Source of the DNA: a virus
IMG/VR virus record: IMGVR_UViG_3300045996_000988
Location: 1-45,248 of that record
DNA length: 45,248 nt
Strand: one strand, 5' to 3'
Shown here: one piece after another, positions 5,160 to 26,870 of the stretch
How the letters are laid out: each line of letters opens with the position of its first letter
How positions within the stretch are numbered: position 1 is the stretch's first letter
Translations under genes and position numbers: made by a program
The notes under the pieces: model-generated
What the model was told of the DNA's origin: nothing
What the model saw: the letters and a program-made list of their open reading frames with translations, nothing else
The model's database searches: none

Positions 5160-5399
5160 ATGCTACAGAGCAGCGACGTAGGCGAGAACGGCATCCGGCT
5201 CGTAGACGGGGAATTCCCAACCGACTTCGTGCGGACACGCGGCGAGCTGCAACAGCTCGTCAGCGAGCACGGGGCAGAGCCAGCAGCGGAGATCGTAGCA
5301 GCGGACATCCGGGAGTGGTATCTCCCGAACGAGTTCTCATATGTCGTGCTCACGTTCGAGGCGAACGCCTATCCGATCCTCGAACTGGGGTTGAGCTAA
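5160..5399 (+). CDS. Small tail-region protein (79 aa)
   Basis: The ATG at 5160 follows a ribosome site (GAAAGG) about 10 bases upstream, preferred over an in-frame start at 5094 that would overlap the previous gene. The product is acidic (many E/D) with a C-terminal N-E-F-S-Y-V-V-L-T-F-E-A-N-A-Y-P-I-L-E-L segment. It resembles small proteins between fibre genes of siphoviruses but is not assigned. A fibre chaperone or adaptor role is possible. Confidence 0.6.
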   Translation: MLQSSDVGENGIRLVDGEFPTDFVRTRGELQQLVSEHGAEPAAEIVAADIREWYLPNEFSYVVLTFEANAYPILELGLS

Positions 5400-5403
5400 C
5401 GCC

Positions 5404-6534
5404 ATGGCTCTCGTCAACTTCGGCGGCTTTCTCACCGGGGATTCGGCGGAGTTGGAAGGCACTTCCGGGGCGGTGGGCGTGCAGTCCACCGTCTCGGAAA
5501 CGGGTGGCTATGCCCTGCGTGCCAACCCGACTACCACCGGCACCGGGTTTGCCAGCGTCCGCGCACTCGACGCACAGGGGCGGCAGTCCACCACTAGCGT
5601 CAACGCCACCCACTATACCAGCTTCCGGTTCCGGGTGGACACGCTGCCGGCGAGCGGCGACGAACCGATCTGCCTGATGGTTTCCGGCATCTCCGGGGTC
5701 AAGCTGGAAGTCCGGATTAACGCCGCGGGCCGGCTGGCGGTCTACAACACCAGCGTTGCCCTCGTGGCGACCGGCGCCACGGTGCTCGCCACCGGCACCT
5801 GGTACACCATCGGCGTGCTGTCCAGCACGGGCAACCCGTCGCCGTATGAGTTGCGGATCAACGGCGTGACGGAGCTCTCCGGCAGCGCCAACCAGGGCAC
5901 CGGCAACCACTCCGGGGCGCGGTTCGGCAAGACGAACAACCGCAACGGCAACTCGGTTGATTTTTACTATGACCGCTATGTGATCGACACGGCAGCCTTC
6001 GTGTTCGGCTCCGTCGGCGTATGCATCCCCGACGCCAACGGCACGCCGATGCAGTGGACCGCGGGCACGGGCGCCAGCGACTACACCCAGATCAACAACA
6101 TCCCGACAACGACTGGAACCCGTGTGGCATCCACGGGAACGGCGGGCGAGGTGGCGCGGTTTGGCTTCCAGAGCCTCGCCACGGCCGGGATCGCGGGGAG
6201 CGTGTTGGCGGTGCGGGCCGTAGGGTTGATCGCCCAAAACGGAGCCGACACCAACGCCTGGAACCTGCGGCTGGTTTCCGGTGGCAGCACGCTCAACACC
6301 ACGGCTTTCGACGCTGCCGGCGCGACACTCCACCTCATCGCCGAGACGGACCCGGCGACGGGCGCCGCCTGGACGGGCGCAGCGGTGGATGCGGTCGAAG
6401 CCGGCGCCGTGGAAGCTAACGCGGTAGTCACACGGCTCACCGATTTGTTCTTGATGGTGCTGTATACGCCGAGCAGCGGCCGATTGCTGCCCCGAATGAT
6501 ACAGGACGGACTCTACGTGGGAGCGCAGCTATGA
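5404..6534 (+). CDS. Tail fibre protein with LamG/concanavalin-like fold (376 aa)
   Basis: Residues about 30-200 read like a carbohydrate-binding beta-sandwich: Y-A-L-R-A-N-P near residue 37, then T-S-F-R-F-R-V-D-T-L-P, alternating hydrophobic strands, A-G-T-G-T-W-Y-T-I-G-V and F-Y-Y-D-R-Y-V-I-D. This order is typical of LamG/concanavalin-like domains used to bind glycans. The C-terminal half is a second beta-rich region. It ends by overlapping the next gene by 4 bases (ATGA). A receptor-binding role is inferred from fold and position. Confidence 0.65.
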   Translation: MALVNFGGFLTGDSAELEGTSGAVGVQSTVSETGGYALRANPTTTGTGFASVRALDAQGRQSTTSVNATHYTSFRFRVDTLPASGDEPICLMVSGISGVKLEVRINAAGRLAVYNTSVALVATGATVLATGTWYTIGVLSSTGNPSPYELRINGVTELSGSANQGTGNHSGARFGKTNNRNGNSVDFYYDRYVIDTAAFVFGSVGVCIPDANGTPMQWTAGTGASDYTQINNIPTTTGTRVASTGTAGEVARFGFQSLATAGIAGSVLAVRAVGLIAQNGADTNAWNLRLVSGGSTLNTTAFDAAGATLHLIAETDPATGAAWTGAAVDAVEAGAVEANAVVTRLTDLFLMVLYTPSSGRLLPRMIQDGLYVGAQL

Positions 6535-7802
6535 GAGCGATCAAACTCGGCAGCACAGATCAGAGCGTCACCATCCGGATCGTAGACAGCACGGACGGCA
6601 CCCCGGAGACGGGAGTGGTGGCGGCTACTTCCGGCCTCGCGCTCTACTACCGGCGCCAGGGCGCGGCCCGCGTAGCACTCACGGCGCTCAACGACCTGGC
6701 CGGGGCAAACTCGGCGCACAACGACGGTGGGCTTTTCCACTTGGGAGACGGCTACTACCGGGTAGACCCGCAGGACGCAGCGTTCGCAAGCGGGTCCGCT
6801 GATGTGGTGATCGAGGGGACCGCAACCGGTATGGTGGTGATTGGAGCGTATCATCCGCTCGTGGCCTATGACCCGGCCGACGCGGCGGGGCTCGGGCTCT
6901 CCCGGATCGACGCCGCGGTTAGCTCTCGCAGCACCCTGACGGCGCAGGGGGTCTGGGAATACGCTACCCGCACTCTATCTGCCATCTCCGACAGCGCGGG
7001 CGTGACGACGCTTCTGGACCGGCTTACAGCTACTCGGGCGGGCTACCTGGACAACCTCGCGAACGCCATCGCCACGGCAGCCGAGAACGCAGCGGCAGTA
7101 TGGGCTGCAGTGTCCCGCACCATCACAGGGACTGTCTCACTGGGGAGCGGCGAGCGGGTGAAGCTGGACGCCTCGCAGCCGGATTACGCGCCGCTGAAGG
7201 CCAGCGACTACACCGCGCCGCCGACCGTGGGAGCCATCGCAGATGCCGTGTGGGACGAAACGGCAGCGGACCACGAGACGGCCGGCAGCACCGGAGAGGC
7301 GCTCGCGGACGGTGGCGGGGGCGGTGGGGCGAGTGCAGCGGACATCTGGGGTTACTCATCGCGCACGCTCACTATGACGGCAGCGCAGATTGCCGACGTG
7401 CTGGCGGGCGATACGATCAACATCCGGCAAGCGGATAAGGTCACCATCCCTCTCGTGGGCATCGGTTCGCTGGTCGGCCGGCAGAAGCTCTACTTCACGG
7501 TGAAGCTGAAGCGGACTGACTCGGATGAAAAGTCGCTACTCCAGATCGAAGAGACGGCCGGCGCGGTCTACATCAACGGGGTTCCGGCGAGCGCAGGTTC
7601 GCTCTGCTCGCTCACGGTCACGAACGCGAACACGGGAGCGGTCACCATCGTGCTGAAGTCGGGTGCGGCCAAGCTCCTGCCCGCAGGCGAGGGCTACGTC
7701 TACGACGTGAAGATGATCACCAGCACTGACAACGACGCCGCGACGAAGACCGAAGGCGAGGCGACCGTAACGGGAGCGGTGACGCGGGCGACCACGGCCT
7801 AA
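6531..7802 (+). CDS. Tail fibre / receptor-binding protein (423 aa)
   Basis: The N-terminus (residues 1-110) matches a pattern common at the start of phage tail fibre and baseplate proteins: an opening beta domain, G-L-A-L-Y-Y-R-R, G-L-F-H-L-G-D-G-Y-Y-R-V-D, D-A-A-F-A and G-M-V-V-I-G-A-Y-H-P-L. A helical middle carries repeats of A-x-W-E-Y/W-D-E-T and a glycine run near residue 263. The C-terminal 120 residues are beta-rich. It is the last gene of the tail operon and is followed by a strong terminator. A host-range determinant is likely but inferred. Confidence 0.65.
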   Translation: MRAIKLGSTDQSVTIRIVDSTDGTPETGVVAATSGLALYYRRQGAARVALTALNDLAGANSAHNDGGLFHLGDGYYRVDPQDAAFASGSADVVIEGTATGMVVIGAYHPLVAYDPADAAGLGLSRIDAAVSSRSTLTAQGVWEYATRTLSAISDSAGVTTLLDRLTATRAGYLDNLANAIATAAENAAAVWAAVSRTITGTVSLGSGERVKLDASQPDYAPLKASDYTAPPTVGAIADAVWDETAADHETAGSTGEALADGGGGGGASAADIWGYSSRTLTMTAAQIADVLAGDTINIRQADKVTIPLVGIGSLVGRQKLYFTVKLKRTDSDEKSLLQIEETAGAVYINGVPASAGSLCSLTVTNANTGAVTIVLKSGAAKLLPAGEGYVYDVKMITSTDNDAATKTEGEATVTGAVTRATTA

Positions 7803-20723: not shown

Positions 20724-21085
20724 GCCTCTTCGCTGATGCGGAACTGGAGACATTGGCACCGGAGCCGAAGGAGAAAGCTCCCTCGTTCAAGATGCCGCGA
20801 CTGCACGGTCCGCGGGAGTTGGTGAACGGCGCGGTGACGTTTCGTTCTCGCCACATCGCCGAGTGCCGGCGGATCATCAAGCGCCGGGAACAGGCCGCGG
20901 AGAAGTGGCGGAACGGCTGTGCGGCGGGAGACACGGAGCGGTTAGAGGCGCTGGAGATGGAAGTGGGGACGATGCGCGGCAACCTGGAGCGGACCCTAAC
21001 GCAGGAGACGGACGCGGAGTATTGGCTGTCGCTCCGCAACCAGGCGATAGACGCGGAGACGTGGCTGAAAGGCGGGGCGAGATGA
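20720..21085 (+). CDS. Hypothetical coiled-coil protein (121 aa)
   Basis: ATGA overlap on both ends. Residues about 45-115 are charged helix (A-E-C-R-R-I-I-K-R-R-E-Q-A-A-E-K-W-R). No family recognised. Its place between resolvase and SNF2-methyltransferase suggests a replication/recombination accessory role. Confidence 0.55.
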   Translation: MSLFADAELETLAPEPKEKAPSFKMPRLHGPRELVNGAVTFRSRHIAECRRIIKRREQAAEKWRNGCAAGDTERLEALEMEVGTMRGNLERTLTQETDAEYWLSLRNQAIDAETWLKGGAR

Positions 21086-23877
21086 AGGACTACGAGGCAT
21101 TCCTACAGCGGAAGCGGAAGGCGGCGGTGCCGACCGGCTTCCTGATCGAGCCGGAGCAGTTGGGGGCGCACCTTTACGAGTGGCAGCGGCCCGTGGTGCG
21201 GTGGGCACTCCGGCGTGGGTGTGCGGCGCTGTTCGAGGACTGCGGGCTCGGAAAGACCGCACAGCAGCTCGAATGGGCGGCACAGGTAGCGGACCACGTC
21301 GACGCGCCGGTATTGATCTTCGCGCCACTCGCGGTGGCGCGGCAAACGCAGGCCGAGGGCGAGAAGTTCGGCATCCCGGTAACGGTGTGCCGGCGAATGG
21401 AAGACGTGCGAGAGGGCGTGAACGTCACCAACTACGACCTGCTGCAGCACTTCCAGCCGGCAGCGTTCGGTGGGATCGTGCTGGACGAGAGCAGCATCCT
21501 GAAGGGTGATGGCACGGTGCGGAAGGCCATCACGGAGTTTGCGGAGCGCATCCCGTTCCGTCTCGCCTGCACGGCCACGCCGGCGCCGAACGATCACCAG
21601 GAGCTCATCAATCACGCGGAGTTCCTCGGCGTGATGCGGGGAGACGAGATCCTCTCGCTCTGGTTCACGCAGGACGGCAACACGACGCACAAATGGCGGC
21701 TGAAGGGTCACGCCCGGGAAGACTTCTGGCGCTGGGTGGCAACGTGGGCGCTCGCGGTGCGGACGCCGGCCGATCTGGGCTACCCGGCTGACGGGTACAC
21801 GCTCCCGCCGATCACCTACGTGCAGCACGTCGTTGATACGGGCGCACCGACCGACGCGCTGTTTCAGGCGGAAGCCCGTGGCATCGCGGAGCAGCGCCGG
21901 GTGCGCCGGGAGACGCTGGCCGCTCGGGTGTGGCTGACGGTTAACATCGTAACTTCTTCGGGCCTAACTGACGCCTGCGGAGGTAAAATTGATGTATGTG
22001 GAAACCAGAATACGCCGCAAGACAACGAGAGAAGTATCGCACTGACCCCGAAGTGCGGGCACGAGTCCGTGCCAGTAATCGAACTCCCGAAGAGAACCGG
22101 GAATACATGCAAGCCTACTACGAGGCCAACAAAGAGAAGTATCAAGAGTACCGACGTGCCAACGCTGAAAAGCGAAATAGGGAACGTCGGGAACGATACG
22201 CAGCCGACGCAGAGTTCCGCGAGAAGTGCAAACAGCACTCTAGGAACCGAGACAAGTCAGCCAAGCGCGACGGGCGGCTCAAAGCGGAGTTCGGAATTGG
22301 AAGCTCCGAGTACGACGCACTGCTTGAGCAACAGGGCGGACGGTGCGCTATCTGTGGCGCAGAGCAGGCCGACAAGCGGGGACATCAACTCCATGTCGAT
22401 CACTGCCACGCAACCGGAGTTGTCCGAGGGCTCCTCTGCGGCGGATGCAACATGGGCATCGGTAAGTTCAAAGACGACCCTGAACGGCTCCGGAAAGCCG
22501 TGGATTATCTGGTGCGAGCTAAATGACGAGCAGGACGCACTAGCGGAAGCACTGGGCGACAGTGCTATCTCCATCTACGGGTCGTTGTCCTCGGACGAGA
22601 AGGAACGAAGAGTTCTTTCCTGGCTCCGAGGGGATCGACCCGTTCTCATTTCAAAGCCATCCCTGATCGGGTTTGGGATGAACTTTCAGCACTGCGCGGA
22701 CGTGGTATTCAGCGGCCTGGGGAACAGCTACGAGAAGTATTACCAGGCCGTCAGGCGGTGCTATCGGTTCGGGCAGAAGCGGCCGGTAACGGTGCATGTG
22801 GTGACGAGTGAAGCGGACGGGCCGATCGTCCGGAACATCGAACGGAAGGAGCAGCAAGCAGTGGAGATGATGAGTGAACTGATCGGACTTACTGATCTGA
22901 CGTGCGCCGCGGCGAGCGCCCGGGAAGAGATGGAATACACCGAGGGTAAGGCGTCCGGTACCGGATGGGATCTGCTGCTCGGCGATAGCTGCAAGACGCT
23001 CGTGGAGCTCAAGACGGGGAGCGTCGGGCACTCGGTGTTCTCTCCCCCCTTCCCGTCGATGTATGTCTACACCAACTCCCCGCACGACATCGGCAACTGC
23101 GCGTCGTTCGAGGAGATGCTGTCCCACTTCCGGTTCCTGATCCCGGAGCTCCTGCGCGTGACGATGCCGGGGCGTTCCTGCTCCGTCCATCTCACCCAGG
23201 CGCTCTCGTTCGTGGGGAAAGACGGCCACGCAGGGATGAAAGACTTCCGCGGCGCCACGATCCGCGCGTTCGAAGATGCCGGCTGGCACTACTACGGCGA
23301 GGTAGCGATCGACAAGAACCCGCAGTTGAAGGCGATCCGCACGAAGGACCGCGGGCTGTTGTTCAAGACGCTCGCGACGGACAGCGCCCATATGCATATG
23401 GCGATGGCCGACTACCTGCTGCAGTTCCGGGCGCCCGGGGACAACCCCGAACCGATCCGCGCCGGCATCAGCGACAAGTATGGGAACCCGGACGGGTGGA
23501 TCTCGCAGGACGAGTGGATCCGTTGGGCGCGTCCGGTATGGTATGCCGCTGACTTCGCTCCGGACGGGGACGGCATCGCGGAGACGGACGTGCTCAACGT
23601 GTCGCAGGCGCGGGACACGAACGACGAGCGCCACCTGTGCCCGCTGCAGCTCGGCGTGATCGAGCGGTCCCTGAAGCTGTGGTCGAACCCTGGCGACCTG
23701 ATCCTCTCGCCGTTCGCCGGCATCGGGAGCGAGGGGTACCAGGCGGTGCGCTTCGGCCGGCGGTTCATCGGTGGGGAGTTGAAGCCGAGCTACTTCCGGC
23801 AGGCGGTTCGCAACCTGAAGCGGGCCGAAGCGATGTCGACGCAGCGTTCCCTCGCGGGCGCTCTGTTCGGGGAGTAA
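21082..23877 (+). CDS. SNF2-type helicase fused to a DNA methyltransferase, interrupted by an HNH insertion (931 aa as read)
   Basis: N-terminal SNF2 helicase: E-D-C-G-L-G-K-T (52-59), L-D-E-S-S (near 135), C-T-A-T-P motif, and R-C-Y-R-F-G-Q-K-R-P near 556. C-terminal DNA amino-methyltransferase: catalytic F-S-P-P-F (near 653) before the AdoMet motif S-P-F-A-G-I-G-S-E-G (near 878), the beta-class order. Such fusions are seen in other phages. Residues about 294-470 are Ser/Thr/Asn-rich and out of character; removing 531 bp (21961-22491) joins T-S-S-G directly to K-P-W-I-I-W-C and restores a normal helicase. Whether the inserted 177 codons are translated or removed is open. Confidence 0.85.
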   Translation: MKDYEAFLQRKRKAAVPTGFLIEPEQLGAHLYEWQRPVVRWALRRGCAALFEDCGLGKTAQQLEWAAQVADHVDAPVLIFAPLAVARQTQAEGEKFGIPVTVCRRMEDVREGVNVTNYDLLQHFQPAAFGGIVLDESSILKGDGTVRKAITEFAERIPFRLACTATPAPNDHQELINHAEFLGVMRGDEILSLWFTQDGNTTHKWRLKGHAREDFWRWVATWALAVRTPADLGYPADGYTLPPITYVQHVVDTGAPTDALFQAEARGIAEQRRVRRETLAARVWLTVNIVTSSGLTDACGGKIDVCGNQNTPQDNERSIALTPKCGHESVPVIELPKRTGNTCKPTTRPTKRSIKSTDVPTLKSEIGNVGNDTQPTQSSARSANSTLGTETSQPSATGGSKRSSELEAPSTTHCLSNRADGALSVAQSRPTSGDINSMSITATQPELSEGSSAADATWASVSSKTTLNGSGKPWIIWCELNDEQDALAEALGDSAISIYGSLSSDEKERRVLSWLRGDRPVLISKPSLIGFGMNFQHCADVVFSGLGNSYEKYYQAVRRCYRFGQKRPVTVHVVTSEADGPIVRNIERKEQQAVEMMSELIGLTDLTCAAASAREEMEYTEGKASGTGWDLLLGDSCKTLVELKTGSVGHSVFSPPFPSMYVYTNSPHDIGNCASFEEMLSHFRFLIPELLRVTMPGRSCSVHLTQALSFVGKDGHAGMKDFRGATIRAFEDAGWHYYGEVAIDKNPQLKAIRTKDRGLLFKTLATDSAHMHMAMADYLLQFRAPGDNPEPIRAGISDKYGNPDGWISQDEWIRWARPVWYAADFAPDGDGIAETDVLNVSQARDTNDERHLCPLQLGVIERSLKLWSNPGDLILSPFAGIGSEGYQAVRFGRRFIGGELKPSYFRQAVRNLKRAEAMSTQRSLAGALFGE
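21961..22491 (+). mobile_element. 531-bp HNH homing element inserted in the SNF2 gene
   Basis: The left flank codes T-S-S-G (ending TCG-GGC) and the right flank codes G-S-G-K (TCC-GGA), so the ends share coding sense and deletion of exactly 177 codons is seamless. It carries 35 bp with a GGAGG ribosome site, then nearly all of an HNH gene in the +2 frame. There is no room for a group I intron core. Ends are inferred to within a few bases. Confidence 0.65.
21996..22526 (+). CDS. HNH endonuclease, endonuclease VII family (176 aa)
   Basis: C-terminal EndoVII/HNH domain: C117-A-I-C120, then H-V-D-H-C-H (D135, H136, H138), R-G-L-L-C148-G-G-C151-N152. Two Cys pairs bind zinc and D-H...N is the active site. 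The N-terminal 95 residues are basic repeats (Y-E-A-N-K-E-K-Y, A-N-A-E-K-R-N-R-E-R-R-E-R), as in free-standing homing endonucleases. GGAGG lies 12 bases upstream. The last dozen residues (K-A-V-D-Y-L-V-R-A-K) are encoded by host-gene bases that also code the helicase motif K-P-W-I-I-W-C-E-L. Probably a homing nuclease. Confidence 0.88.
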   Translation: MWKPEYAARQREKYRTDPEVRARVRASNRTPEENREYMQAYYEANKEKYQEYRRANAEKRNRERRERYAADAEFREKCKQHSRNRDKSAKRDGRLKAEFGIGSSEYDALLEQQGGRCAICGAEQADKRGHQLHVDHCHATGVVRGLLCGGCNMGIGKFKDDPERLRKAVDYLVRAK

Positions 23878-25789: not shown

Positions 25790-26199
25790 TGAGCGAACCT
25801 ACACACGAACGCCTCTTCGTCATCGCAATTTCCGCCTGGAAGCTCACGGTGGGCACGCGAGGCAACGGAAACGGGGTGGTCATCGTGCCGGGGATTACGA
25901 CGGGATGGAGTGAGAGCCCGGCGATGGCGCGGGAAGCGGGCGAACTCCTCGCCAAGTCGCAACTCCCAGCGGTGAAGGGGTACCGGGATCACGCGGCGCT
26001 GGCGAAGGAAGTTCCGGAAATCAGGTTGCAGGAGTGGGCGGCGCGGCGCGGCTACCTCTCGCCGGAAGAGTGGGAGACGATCAAAGAGGCAACGAACGCC
26101 GTGATCGAGGAGTTGCGCGAAGAGAACCGGCGCTTGCGGAAGAAAGCGGGCGGTAAGGGCCGGCGCCTGGCGATGCTGGAAGAAGAAGGGGGAGAATGA
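25789..26199 (+). CDS. Hypothetical protein with C-terminal coiled coil (136 aa)
   Basis: ATG shares the A of the previous TGA. Residues 1-75 are a mixed domain; residues about 95-130 are a charged coiled coil (N-A-V-I-E-E-L-R-E-E-N-R-R-L-R-K-K). It could be a dimer-forming regulator. Not recognised. Confidence 0.55.
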   Translation: MSEPTHERLFVIAISAWKLTVGTRGNGNGVVIVPGITTGWSESPAMAREAGELLAKSQLPAVKGYRDHAALAKEVPEIRLQEWAARRGYLSPEEWETIKEATNAVIEELREENRRLRKKAGGKGRRLAMLEEEGGE

Positions 26200-26870
26200 T
26201 GGAGATTGACGAGGATGCAGTTGTGTCGTCGGGAGTGCTCACCGAGCTTTACTGCGTTCGCGGGCTATCCGTGGAAGGAGTGTGCAGATCGACAGGATTG
26301 CGCCGGTGGGTTGTCGAGCGGCTGATGAAGCAATATGGCATCACGAAGCGTTCGATGTCGCAGCAGCGAAGAATGGACCTTCGCGTTGGTTTGTTTTCCG
26401 GCTGCAATAAATTGCCGATGCCGCAGGCAGCCATTGATGCGTCGGCGGCTGCCCGTGCAGGTAAGCCTATGCCGACTGAAACTCGCCAGAGGATTTCCAA
26501 CGCGTTGAAGAAACGCGTTTGGTGCGTGTGTGCGTGGTGCGGCAAAGCGTTTCAGCGCCAACCGTGGCGAGCCGTCAAAGGTGAATACCGAGCGTGCAGT
26601 TCAGCATGTGTTGGCTACTACCGTCACTTCCTGCGTAAGCACGGACCCGACGCGCCCCGTCCGGTGATCGTGGAGAAGCTGACGGCACTAGTGAAAGAGA
26701 AGGCCGGGATGCTGCGAGAGCGGGACAGCAAAGACCGGCGACGGCCGAACACCTGGGAGCAGATCGAGAAGGTAGGCGCAGAGATCGGCGCACGGGAACC
26801 AGAGATCGAGGCGGTTCACTTCGCGCAGATGGACGAATATGCCGAGGCGTGCGCTAAAGACACCTTCTAG
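26196..26870 (+). CDS. HTH / zinc-finger DNA-binding protein, candidate late antiterminator (224 aa)
   Basis: N-terminal HTH-like region (about 12-48: S-V-E-G-V-C-R-S-T-G-L-R-R-W-V-V-E-R-L-M). A NUMOD3-like motif follows (A-G-K-P-M-P-T-E-T-R-Q-R-I-S-N-A-L, about 88-105), then a zinc finger C-A-W-C-G-K-A-F...C-S-S-A-C. NUMOD3 is a DNA-contact module of homing nucleases, but no nuclease domain is seen here. It ends 35 bp before a promoter and terminator that precede the late genes, the same place as lambda Q (also a zinc-binding protein). An antiterminator role is inferred from that layout. Confidence 0.6.
   Translation: MMEIDEDAVVSSGVLTELYCVRGLSVEGVCRSTGLRRWVVERLMKQYGITKRSMSQQRRMDLRVGLFSGCNKLPMPQAAIDASAAARAGKPMPTETRQRISNALKKRVWCVCAWCGKAFQRQPWRAVKGEYRACSSACVGYYRHFLRKHGPDAPRPVIVEKLTALVKEKAGMLRERDSKDRRRPNTWEQIEKVGAEIGAREPEIEAVHFAQMDEYAEACAKDTF

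Follow-up and report, generated by a model that had tools for sequence, protein, structure and literature searches.

The window, by which we mean the whole stretch of DNA analysed here, is a virus record of 45,248 bp that carries replication, lysis, portal and tape-measure genes. One of its open reading frames encodes a SNF2-like helicase (Pfam Helicase_C, 2e-7) fused to an N6/N4 DNA methyltransferase, and a gene for an HNH endonuclease lies inside it in a different frame. An initial annotation had described an HNH homing gene inserted in frame in a SNF2-methyltransferase gene; both reading frames and an insert of 531 nt were verified, and uninterrupted homologues continue directly through this site. 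The features of the locus are as follows.

21082-23877, + strand: host gene, SNF2-like helicase fused to N6/N4 DNA methyltransferase; 931 codons (931 aa), ATG at 21082, stop at 23877
21082-21960, + strand: helicase lobe 1 (RecA1); motifs GLGKT, DESS and TATP; last residues NIVTSS; pLDDT mostly >90
21961-22491, + strand: in-frame insert at site A; 531 nt, 177 codons; in the host frame a Ser/Thr/Asn-rich loop without stops, probably disordered
21979-21983, + strand: GGAGG, Shine-Dalgarno-like site of the HNH gene; 12 nt 5′ of the ATG; anti-SD duplex -10.8 kcal/mol
21982-21995, + strand: possible diverged copy of the element's 5′ motif, recognised by eye only and failing a 1-mismatch scan; GRTAAACTGGCAAC before the ATG in relatives, GGTAAAATTGATGT here
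21996-22526, + strand: endonuclease gene of the homing type, HNH (endonuclease VII-like); 176 aa; codons offset by 2 nt from those of the host gene
22492-22935, + strand: helicase lobe 2 (RecA2); motifs GMNFQHC and QAVRRCYRFGQ; no in-frame start codon near its beginning
22495-22526, + strand: bases read twice, 32 nt; HNH C-terminus ...KAVDYLVRAK with its stop, and conserved host KPWIIWCELN
23020-23877, + strand: N6/N4 DNA methyltransferase domain; motifs SPPF and FAGIGS; PF01555 (N6_N4_Mtase), 1e-11

The host frame is free of stops across the whole insert. Deletion of 21961-22491 joins TSS to GKPWIIWC, and the product is then as long as homologues without the insert, for example ...LVNSSSEPWLVWC..., so the prediction that removing 531 bp (177 codons) restores the helicase holds. 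Relatives without the insertion, which were to be sought in order to confirm its ends, are common, but the exact ends remain ambiguous by a few nucleotides (TCGGGC / TCCGGA). A Foldseek search with the predicted helicase structure retrieved the motors of Mot1, Sth1, Isw1, Chd1, Ino80 and CSB.

The HNH protein matches PF02945 (Endonuclease_7, 1.2e-27) and phrog_2914 (9e-38) and, in the PDB, Hpy99I (1e-7) and T4 EndoVII (4e-4), in agreement with its description as an endonuclease VII-like protein in a shifted frame. It has the motifs of this type, CAIC, DHCH and CGGCN, which hold the zinc cysteines (C-x2-C ... C-x2-C) and the catalytic DH ... N; these columns are invariant in our alignment A1 and were also aligned with T4 EndoVII. 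The GGAGG site attributed to the gene is likewise present, with the stable anti-SD duplex listed above. Elsewhere in the window, a 224-aa ORF at 26196-26870 with CAWCGKAF...CSSAC possibly encodes another HNH-associated or zinc-finger DNA-binding protein.

Occurrence and movement of the element

Two host-based searches returned 80 loci each. The site A insert was absent from all 77 measurable loci of the first, and the sole insert-bearing locus of the second was L404, which is occupied at another site (site B) and was drawn by the site-B stretch CICGHKSG contained in the query. Since nearly all loci in these searches are uninterrupted, occupancy is low and sporadic among the sequences compared, as expected of a homing element.

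Searches with the HNH protein led to further loci in IMG/VR and in alpha-proteobacterial genome contigs (Sphingobium, Rhizobium and Mesorhizobium). Within their helicase gene, 22 other distinct contigs carry a member of the same HNH subfamily, and two insertion sites are used. Site A, which is the site of the window, lies between the helicase lobes, ahead of EPWIIWC; site B precedes the RVLISKP motif and is occupied in L088, L099, L102, L103, L180, L183 and L404. Insert lengths are multiples of 3, the HNH codon offset is normally 2 nt but 1 nt in L087 and L351, and the N6/N4 methyltransferase is a separate gene in many relatives. Gordonia phage Malisha has an HNH gene in the same place as the window, with a product 53% identical, and a near copy is found in phage Squiddly; the records of both annotate the helicase only, and the HNH gene is hidden in a single helicase CDS. 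Two loci (L351 and L352) encode a distant helicase-methylase with motifs closer to those of Pacc40 gp60, a site A HNH gene in the other offset and an open host frame. L089 has a second HNH-like gene (5402-5767) between the helicase and methyltransferase parts of the locus. One locus (L218) passed the open-frame filter automatically but lacks helicase flanks, and two others (L137 and L123) are not helicase insertions; these were rejected.

As the initial annotation had noted, the last HNH codons in the window are written by host bases, the HNH stop (22526) falling within the host codons for KPWIIWCELND. From the alignment of site A elements this sharing looks incidental, because the HNH stop lies before, in or after the conserved EPWIIWC, depending on the element. 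Just 5′ of the HNH start, TAAACTGGCA is conserved (L085:3989-4001, L102:3938, L180:3968, L101:3981 and others). It is present within 1 mismatch in many nested elements, at both sites and also near the free-standing gene of L101, and was checked as a Shine-Dalgarno site and found not to be one; most nested elements are without a good Shine-Dalgarno site. Upstream of the HNH start in L098, L178 and L330, a second ACTGGCA-like copy lies ~10-25 nt from the first and is perhaps the host target sequence.

The distribution of insert-bearing hosts requires 12 changes on the helicase tree, 6 of which are forced by well-supported branches. The helicase of the window sits among uninterrupted helicases (98), whereas its HNH clusters with those of L085, L178, L179 and L328 (98/95), whose hosts belong to another clade; the bootstrap of the HNH tree is not fully settled, including for this five-element grouping, and several deep branches are open. 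Because the HNH tree and the host tree disagree, the phylogenies indicate that the HNH element moves horizontally between diverged hosts, and its distribution is disjunct.

The same nuclease is also found in other arrangements. Two AT-rich loci, L090 and L104, carry related elements with host-frame stops. Their helicase gene is divided in two: a stop terminates the upstream half, and the downstream half begins at a start codon of its own with a Shine-Dalgarno site (SD duplexes of -10.7 and -6.0). In L101, a free-standing HNH relative lies between intact helicase and methyltransferase genes. L090 also has TnpB- and TnpA-like genes at 5325-6826 (- strand), an IS200/IS605-type element recognised from its ORF sequences, between its helicase and methyltransferase genes.

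Constraint on the host frame

Among the 24 loci with an HNH gene between helicase halves, 22 have zero host-frame stops, and L404 is a further such case found later; the open host frame is thus not universal, since L090 and L104 carry stops. As a null expectation, the HNH gene of each of 21 nested elements was recoded with synonymous codons at the usage of its locus. A total of 62.4 host-frame stops is expected under this null and 0 were seen, with a joint P of ~10^-30 if the elements were independent, a value that overstates independence and significance because the nested elements are related by descent. The expected number per element ranges from 1.0 to 9.2, the maximum being that of L102 (30% GC). 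The null is conservative, since 104 other relatives, mostly free-standing, have more stops than it predicts (592 vs 423). Set beside the 77 measurable loci that have no insert at site A, these figures show that the arrangement is not accidental.

It could be argued that high GC content and HNH composition leave the host frame open as a side effect, in a helicase gene that is already dead. Stops are rare in this offset for GC-rich HNH genes, and the window by itself, with 1.7 stops expected (P = 0.14), is not significant. The AT-rich L102 (9.2 expected) and L180 (6.4), and L087 (6.4) and L351 (4.9) in the other offset, nevertheless have none, which is striking for each of them alone, and in the window the helicase and methyltransferase motifs and both flanks of the insert are intact. 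A by-product in a dead gene is therefore extremely unlikely.

The loop encoded in the host frame also differs from its recodings in hydropathy, with a mean z of -2.2 (n = 19) vs +0.2 in the other relatives (n = 104; Welch P = 1e-7); the two other-offset elements, L087 and L351, show no hydrophilic bias (z = +0.2 and +2.2). Substitutions between related elements (34/23/76 and 24/10/83 by codon position) fall mostly on HNH third codon positions. The possibility that the host-frame segment is conserved as a protein was considered and rejected: its identity, 0.30-0.51, follows that of the third frame and falls well short of the HNH frame (0.54-0.84). Third-position substitutions and a freely diverging host-frame peptide indicate that the HNH reading is the conserved protein and is under purifying selection. 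The host frame, by the same comparisons, seems to be under no other constraint than staying open and, in most cases, giving a soluble peptide. The initial annotation had reckoned that a Ser/Thr/Asn-rich segment conserved in relatives without the HNH frame, or a lack of uninterrupted homologues, would speak against an insertion; what we find is that uninterrupted homologues exist and that in element pairs the HNH protein is conserved and the host-frame peptide is not.

At site B, the host frame has a C-x-C pair, one motif shortly before the insert and one at its end, in all seven elements. C-x-C is present there in 0 of the 79 uninterrupted loci of the second host-based search, and at the corresponding 3′ end in 3 of 265 other HNH loci. 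The 5′ motif lies mostly outside the HNH gene. The 3′ motif overlaps the HNH motif Y-L-R and has a recoding P of 0.008-0.31 per element; as a sequence signal it is weaker evidence than the 5′ motif, because of this overlap and an appreciable chance occurrence in some elements. We infer that the paired motifs may act as a metal or disulphide clamp.

Fate of the insert in mRNA and protein

Pfam and PHROG searches assign no domain to the host-frame reading of the insert. In AlphaFold2 models of the loop-bearing helicases of the window and L088, the lobes mostly have pLDDT >90 and the loop <50 (in the window at residues 298-437 and 439-464), although low confidence alone is no proof of disorder. 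The lobe junction of SNF2 enzymes tolerates long insertions. The insert might be a protein-spliced, intein-like element with an unusual domain, and like inteins it does interrupt conserved residues in a gene of DNA metabolism. The host-frame insert, however, has no recognisable Hint domain and is given no fold by AlphaFold2, and its ends lack the N-terminal Cys/Ser and the C-terminal His-Asn, so that protein splicing is the least probable of the explanations considered here.

The insert might instead be removed from the mRNA as a self-splicing intron or be bypassed by the ribosome as in T4 gene 60, in either case giving a normal helicase. Deletion of the insert does give a helicase of normal length, and self-removal is frequent in mobile elements of coding genes. 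The initial annotation saw no space for a group I intron core, and this is borne out: only 35 nt of the insert precede the HNH ORF, and an Rfam search of the insert gave chance matches only, with no group I intron or other family. The RNA fold of the insert is ordinary and close to that of shuffles (z = -1.9). Neither splicing nor bypass would require a host frame that is hydrophilic and free of stops, and still such a frame is kept in 22 of the 24 loci, and the host-frame C-x-C pairs at site B would be left unexplained. We consider removal or bypass highly improbable. The choice between a loop and a repair step had been left undecided by the initial annotation; the loop gains from an open and hydrophilic frame that is disordered in models, whereas excision and bypass have gained no support.

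It is also very improbable that the helicase of the window is produced, like that of L090 and L104, as separate lobe 1 and lobe 2 proteins which then reassemble. The second halves in those two loci do have their own starts with SD sites, and phages are known in which a homing endonuclease has given rise to a split gene, but in the window no host-frame ATG, GTG or TTG is found from 30 codons before to 8 codons after the HNH stop, and the host frame has no stop.

The comparative data strongly favour a retained loop, because the open frame is nearly always kept, the loop is biased towards hydrophilic residues, site B has its C-x-C pairs and the loop is disordered in models. On these comparisons, the insert is very probably an unspliced out-of-frame homing element that is retained as a disordered loop of the helicase, the HNH protein being made by internal initiation. 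The single gene of such an element would encode an HNH nuclease of the endonuclease VII type. This nuclease most likely cleaves helicase genes that lack the insert, at a conserved stretch, and the element would be copied into the cut allele during repair, that is, by homing. As the element is in frame and its second frame is stop-free, ribosomes translating the helicase would read straight through it, with nothing spliced. The product would be a helicase with a hydrophilic, disordered loop of 170-200 residues between its lobes, a place tolerable to a SNF2 enzyme, and this loop would be retained in the active enzyme. The HNH protein would be translated from the same mRNA via internal initiation, in the window probably from the GGAGG. 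The arrangement thus suggests how an insert can be tolerated without splicing. The evidence, all of it sequence-based, establishes where the insert lies and in which frames it is read, that the host frame is open, that the HNH gene is under purifying selection and that the element moves horizontally.

A wider reading, which we offer tentatively, is that out-of-frame HNH elements are mobile genes of a widespread type that do without splicing and yet leave their host unharmed, with selection holding the unused frame as a stop-free hydrophilic linker. The C-x-C pair at both ends (site B and Pacc40) may then coordinate a metal or be joined by disulphides and so hold the loop shut, and the free-standing, nested and split states may be different forms in which the same nuclease coexists with one helicase target.

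Comparison with known systems

The free-standing endonuclease VII-like HNH genes of phages (phrog_2914, phrog_2633, PF02945) have the same nuclease fold and motifs as the window, but they are not nested and have many stops in their other frames. Split genes made by homing endonucleases, such as nrdA/mobE of phage Aeh1, resemble the window in that an endonuclease gene interrupts a phage coding gene without an intron, and L090 and L104 are of this type; unlike in the window, the host gene is broken into two proteins. In T4 gene 60 and in the mobile bypassing elements of yeast mitochondria, the ribosome skips an unspliced insert in a coding gene, for which, unlike in the window, an open frame is not needed. 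When mobile endonuclease genes lie in coding sequence, an intron or intein is expected to make them tolerable, and read-through of a harmless frame would be a third way. This way is seen many times, at two sites and in phages of 30-68% GC, with a measurable signature of selection. Annotation programs that assign only one frame to each stretch overlook nucleases of this sort.

The closest known cases are the ShiLan domain and Pacc40 gp60, out-of-frame HNH genes in phage methylase and helicase-methylase genes, whose host frames are stop-free, which are neither introns nor inteins and for which a retained loop has been proposed (Arsenault, Gosselin and Gogarten 2025, PMC11855218; earlier PMC9957025). 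Another such insertion was announced in 2025 in phage Applejack (PMC12613952). Like the window, Pacc40 gp60 of a Mycobacterium phage has an out-of-frame HNH-like gene in a helicase-methylase ORF, with a stop-free host frame and no intron or intein (PMC11855218); like site B, it has C-x-C at both host-frame ends of the insert (CRCLC...CPC), at a third site. It differs in that the insertion lies earlier in the helicase (PSDI|DTGYDLPPL) and that the matches reported for its nuclease are HNH/AP2-like and not endonuclease VII, in the one phage reported (PMC11855218). The Pacc40 gp60 record (L393:3102-7127) is labelled as the large subunit of an anaerobic ribonucleoside reductase, but its sequence encodes a helicase-methylase that contains both an intein and an out-of-frame HNH insert. 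ShiLan gp65 shares with the window an out-of-frame HNH gene, a stop-free host frame, a disjunct distribution and a proposed retained loop; unlike the window, its host is a methylase without a helicase, its nuclease has flanking zinc fingers, its start is a GTG without an SD site, and it is reported from Mycobacterium phages (PMC9957025, PMC11855218).

By its frames and coding content, the window element is of the ShiLan/Pacc40 kind, with a different nuclease family and different sites, and the present statistics on coding sequence support the retained-loop proposal of PMC11855218. New here are the endonuclease VII-type nuclease, helicase sites A and B, the statistics for host-frame translation, the split and free-standing sister states and the paired C-x-C flanking the loop (site B and Pacc40). 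The 2025 proposal for a few Mycobacterium phages thereby becomes a testable general rule, with Malisha and Squiddly as culturable examples.
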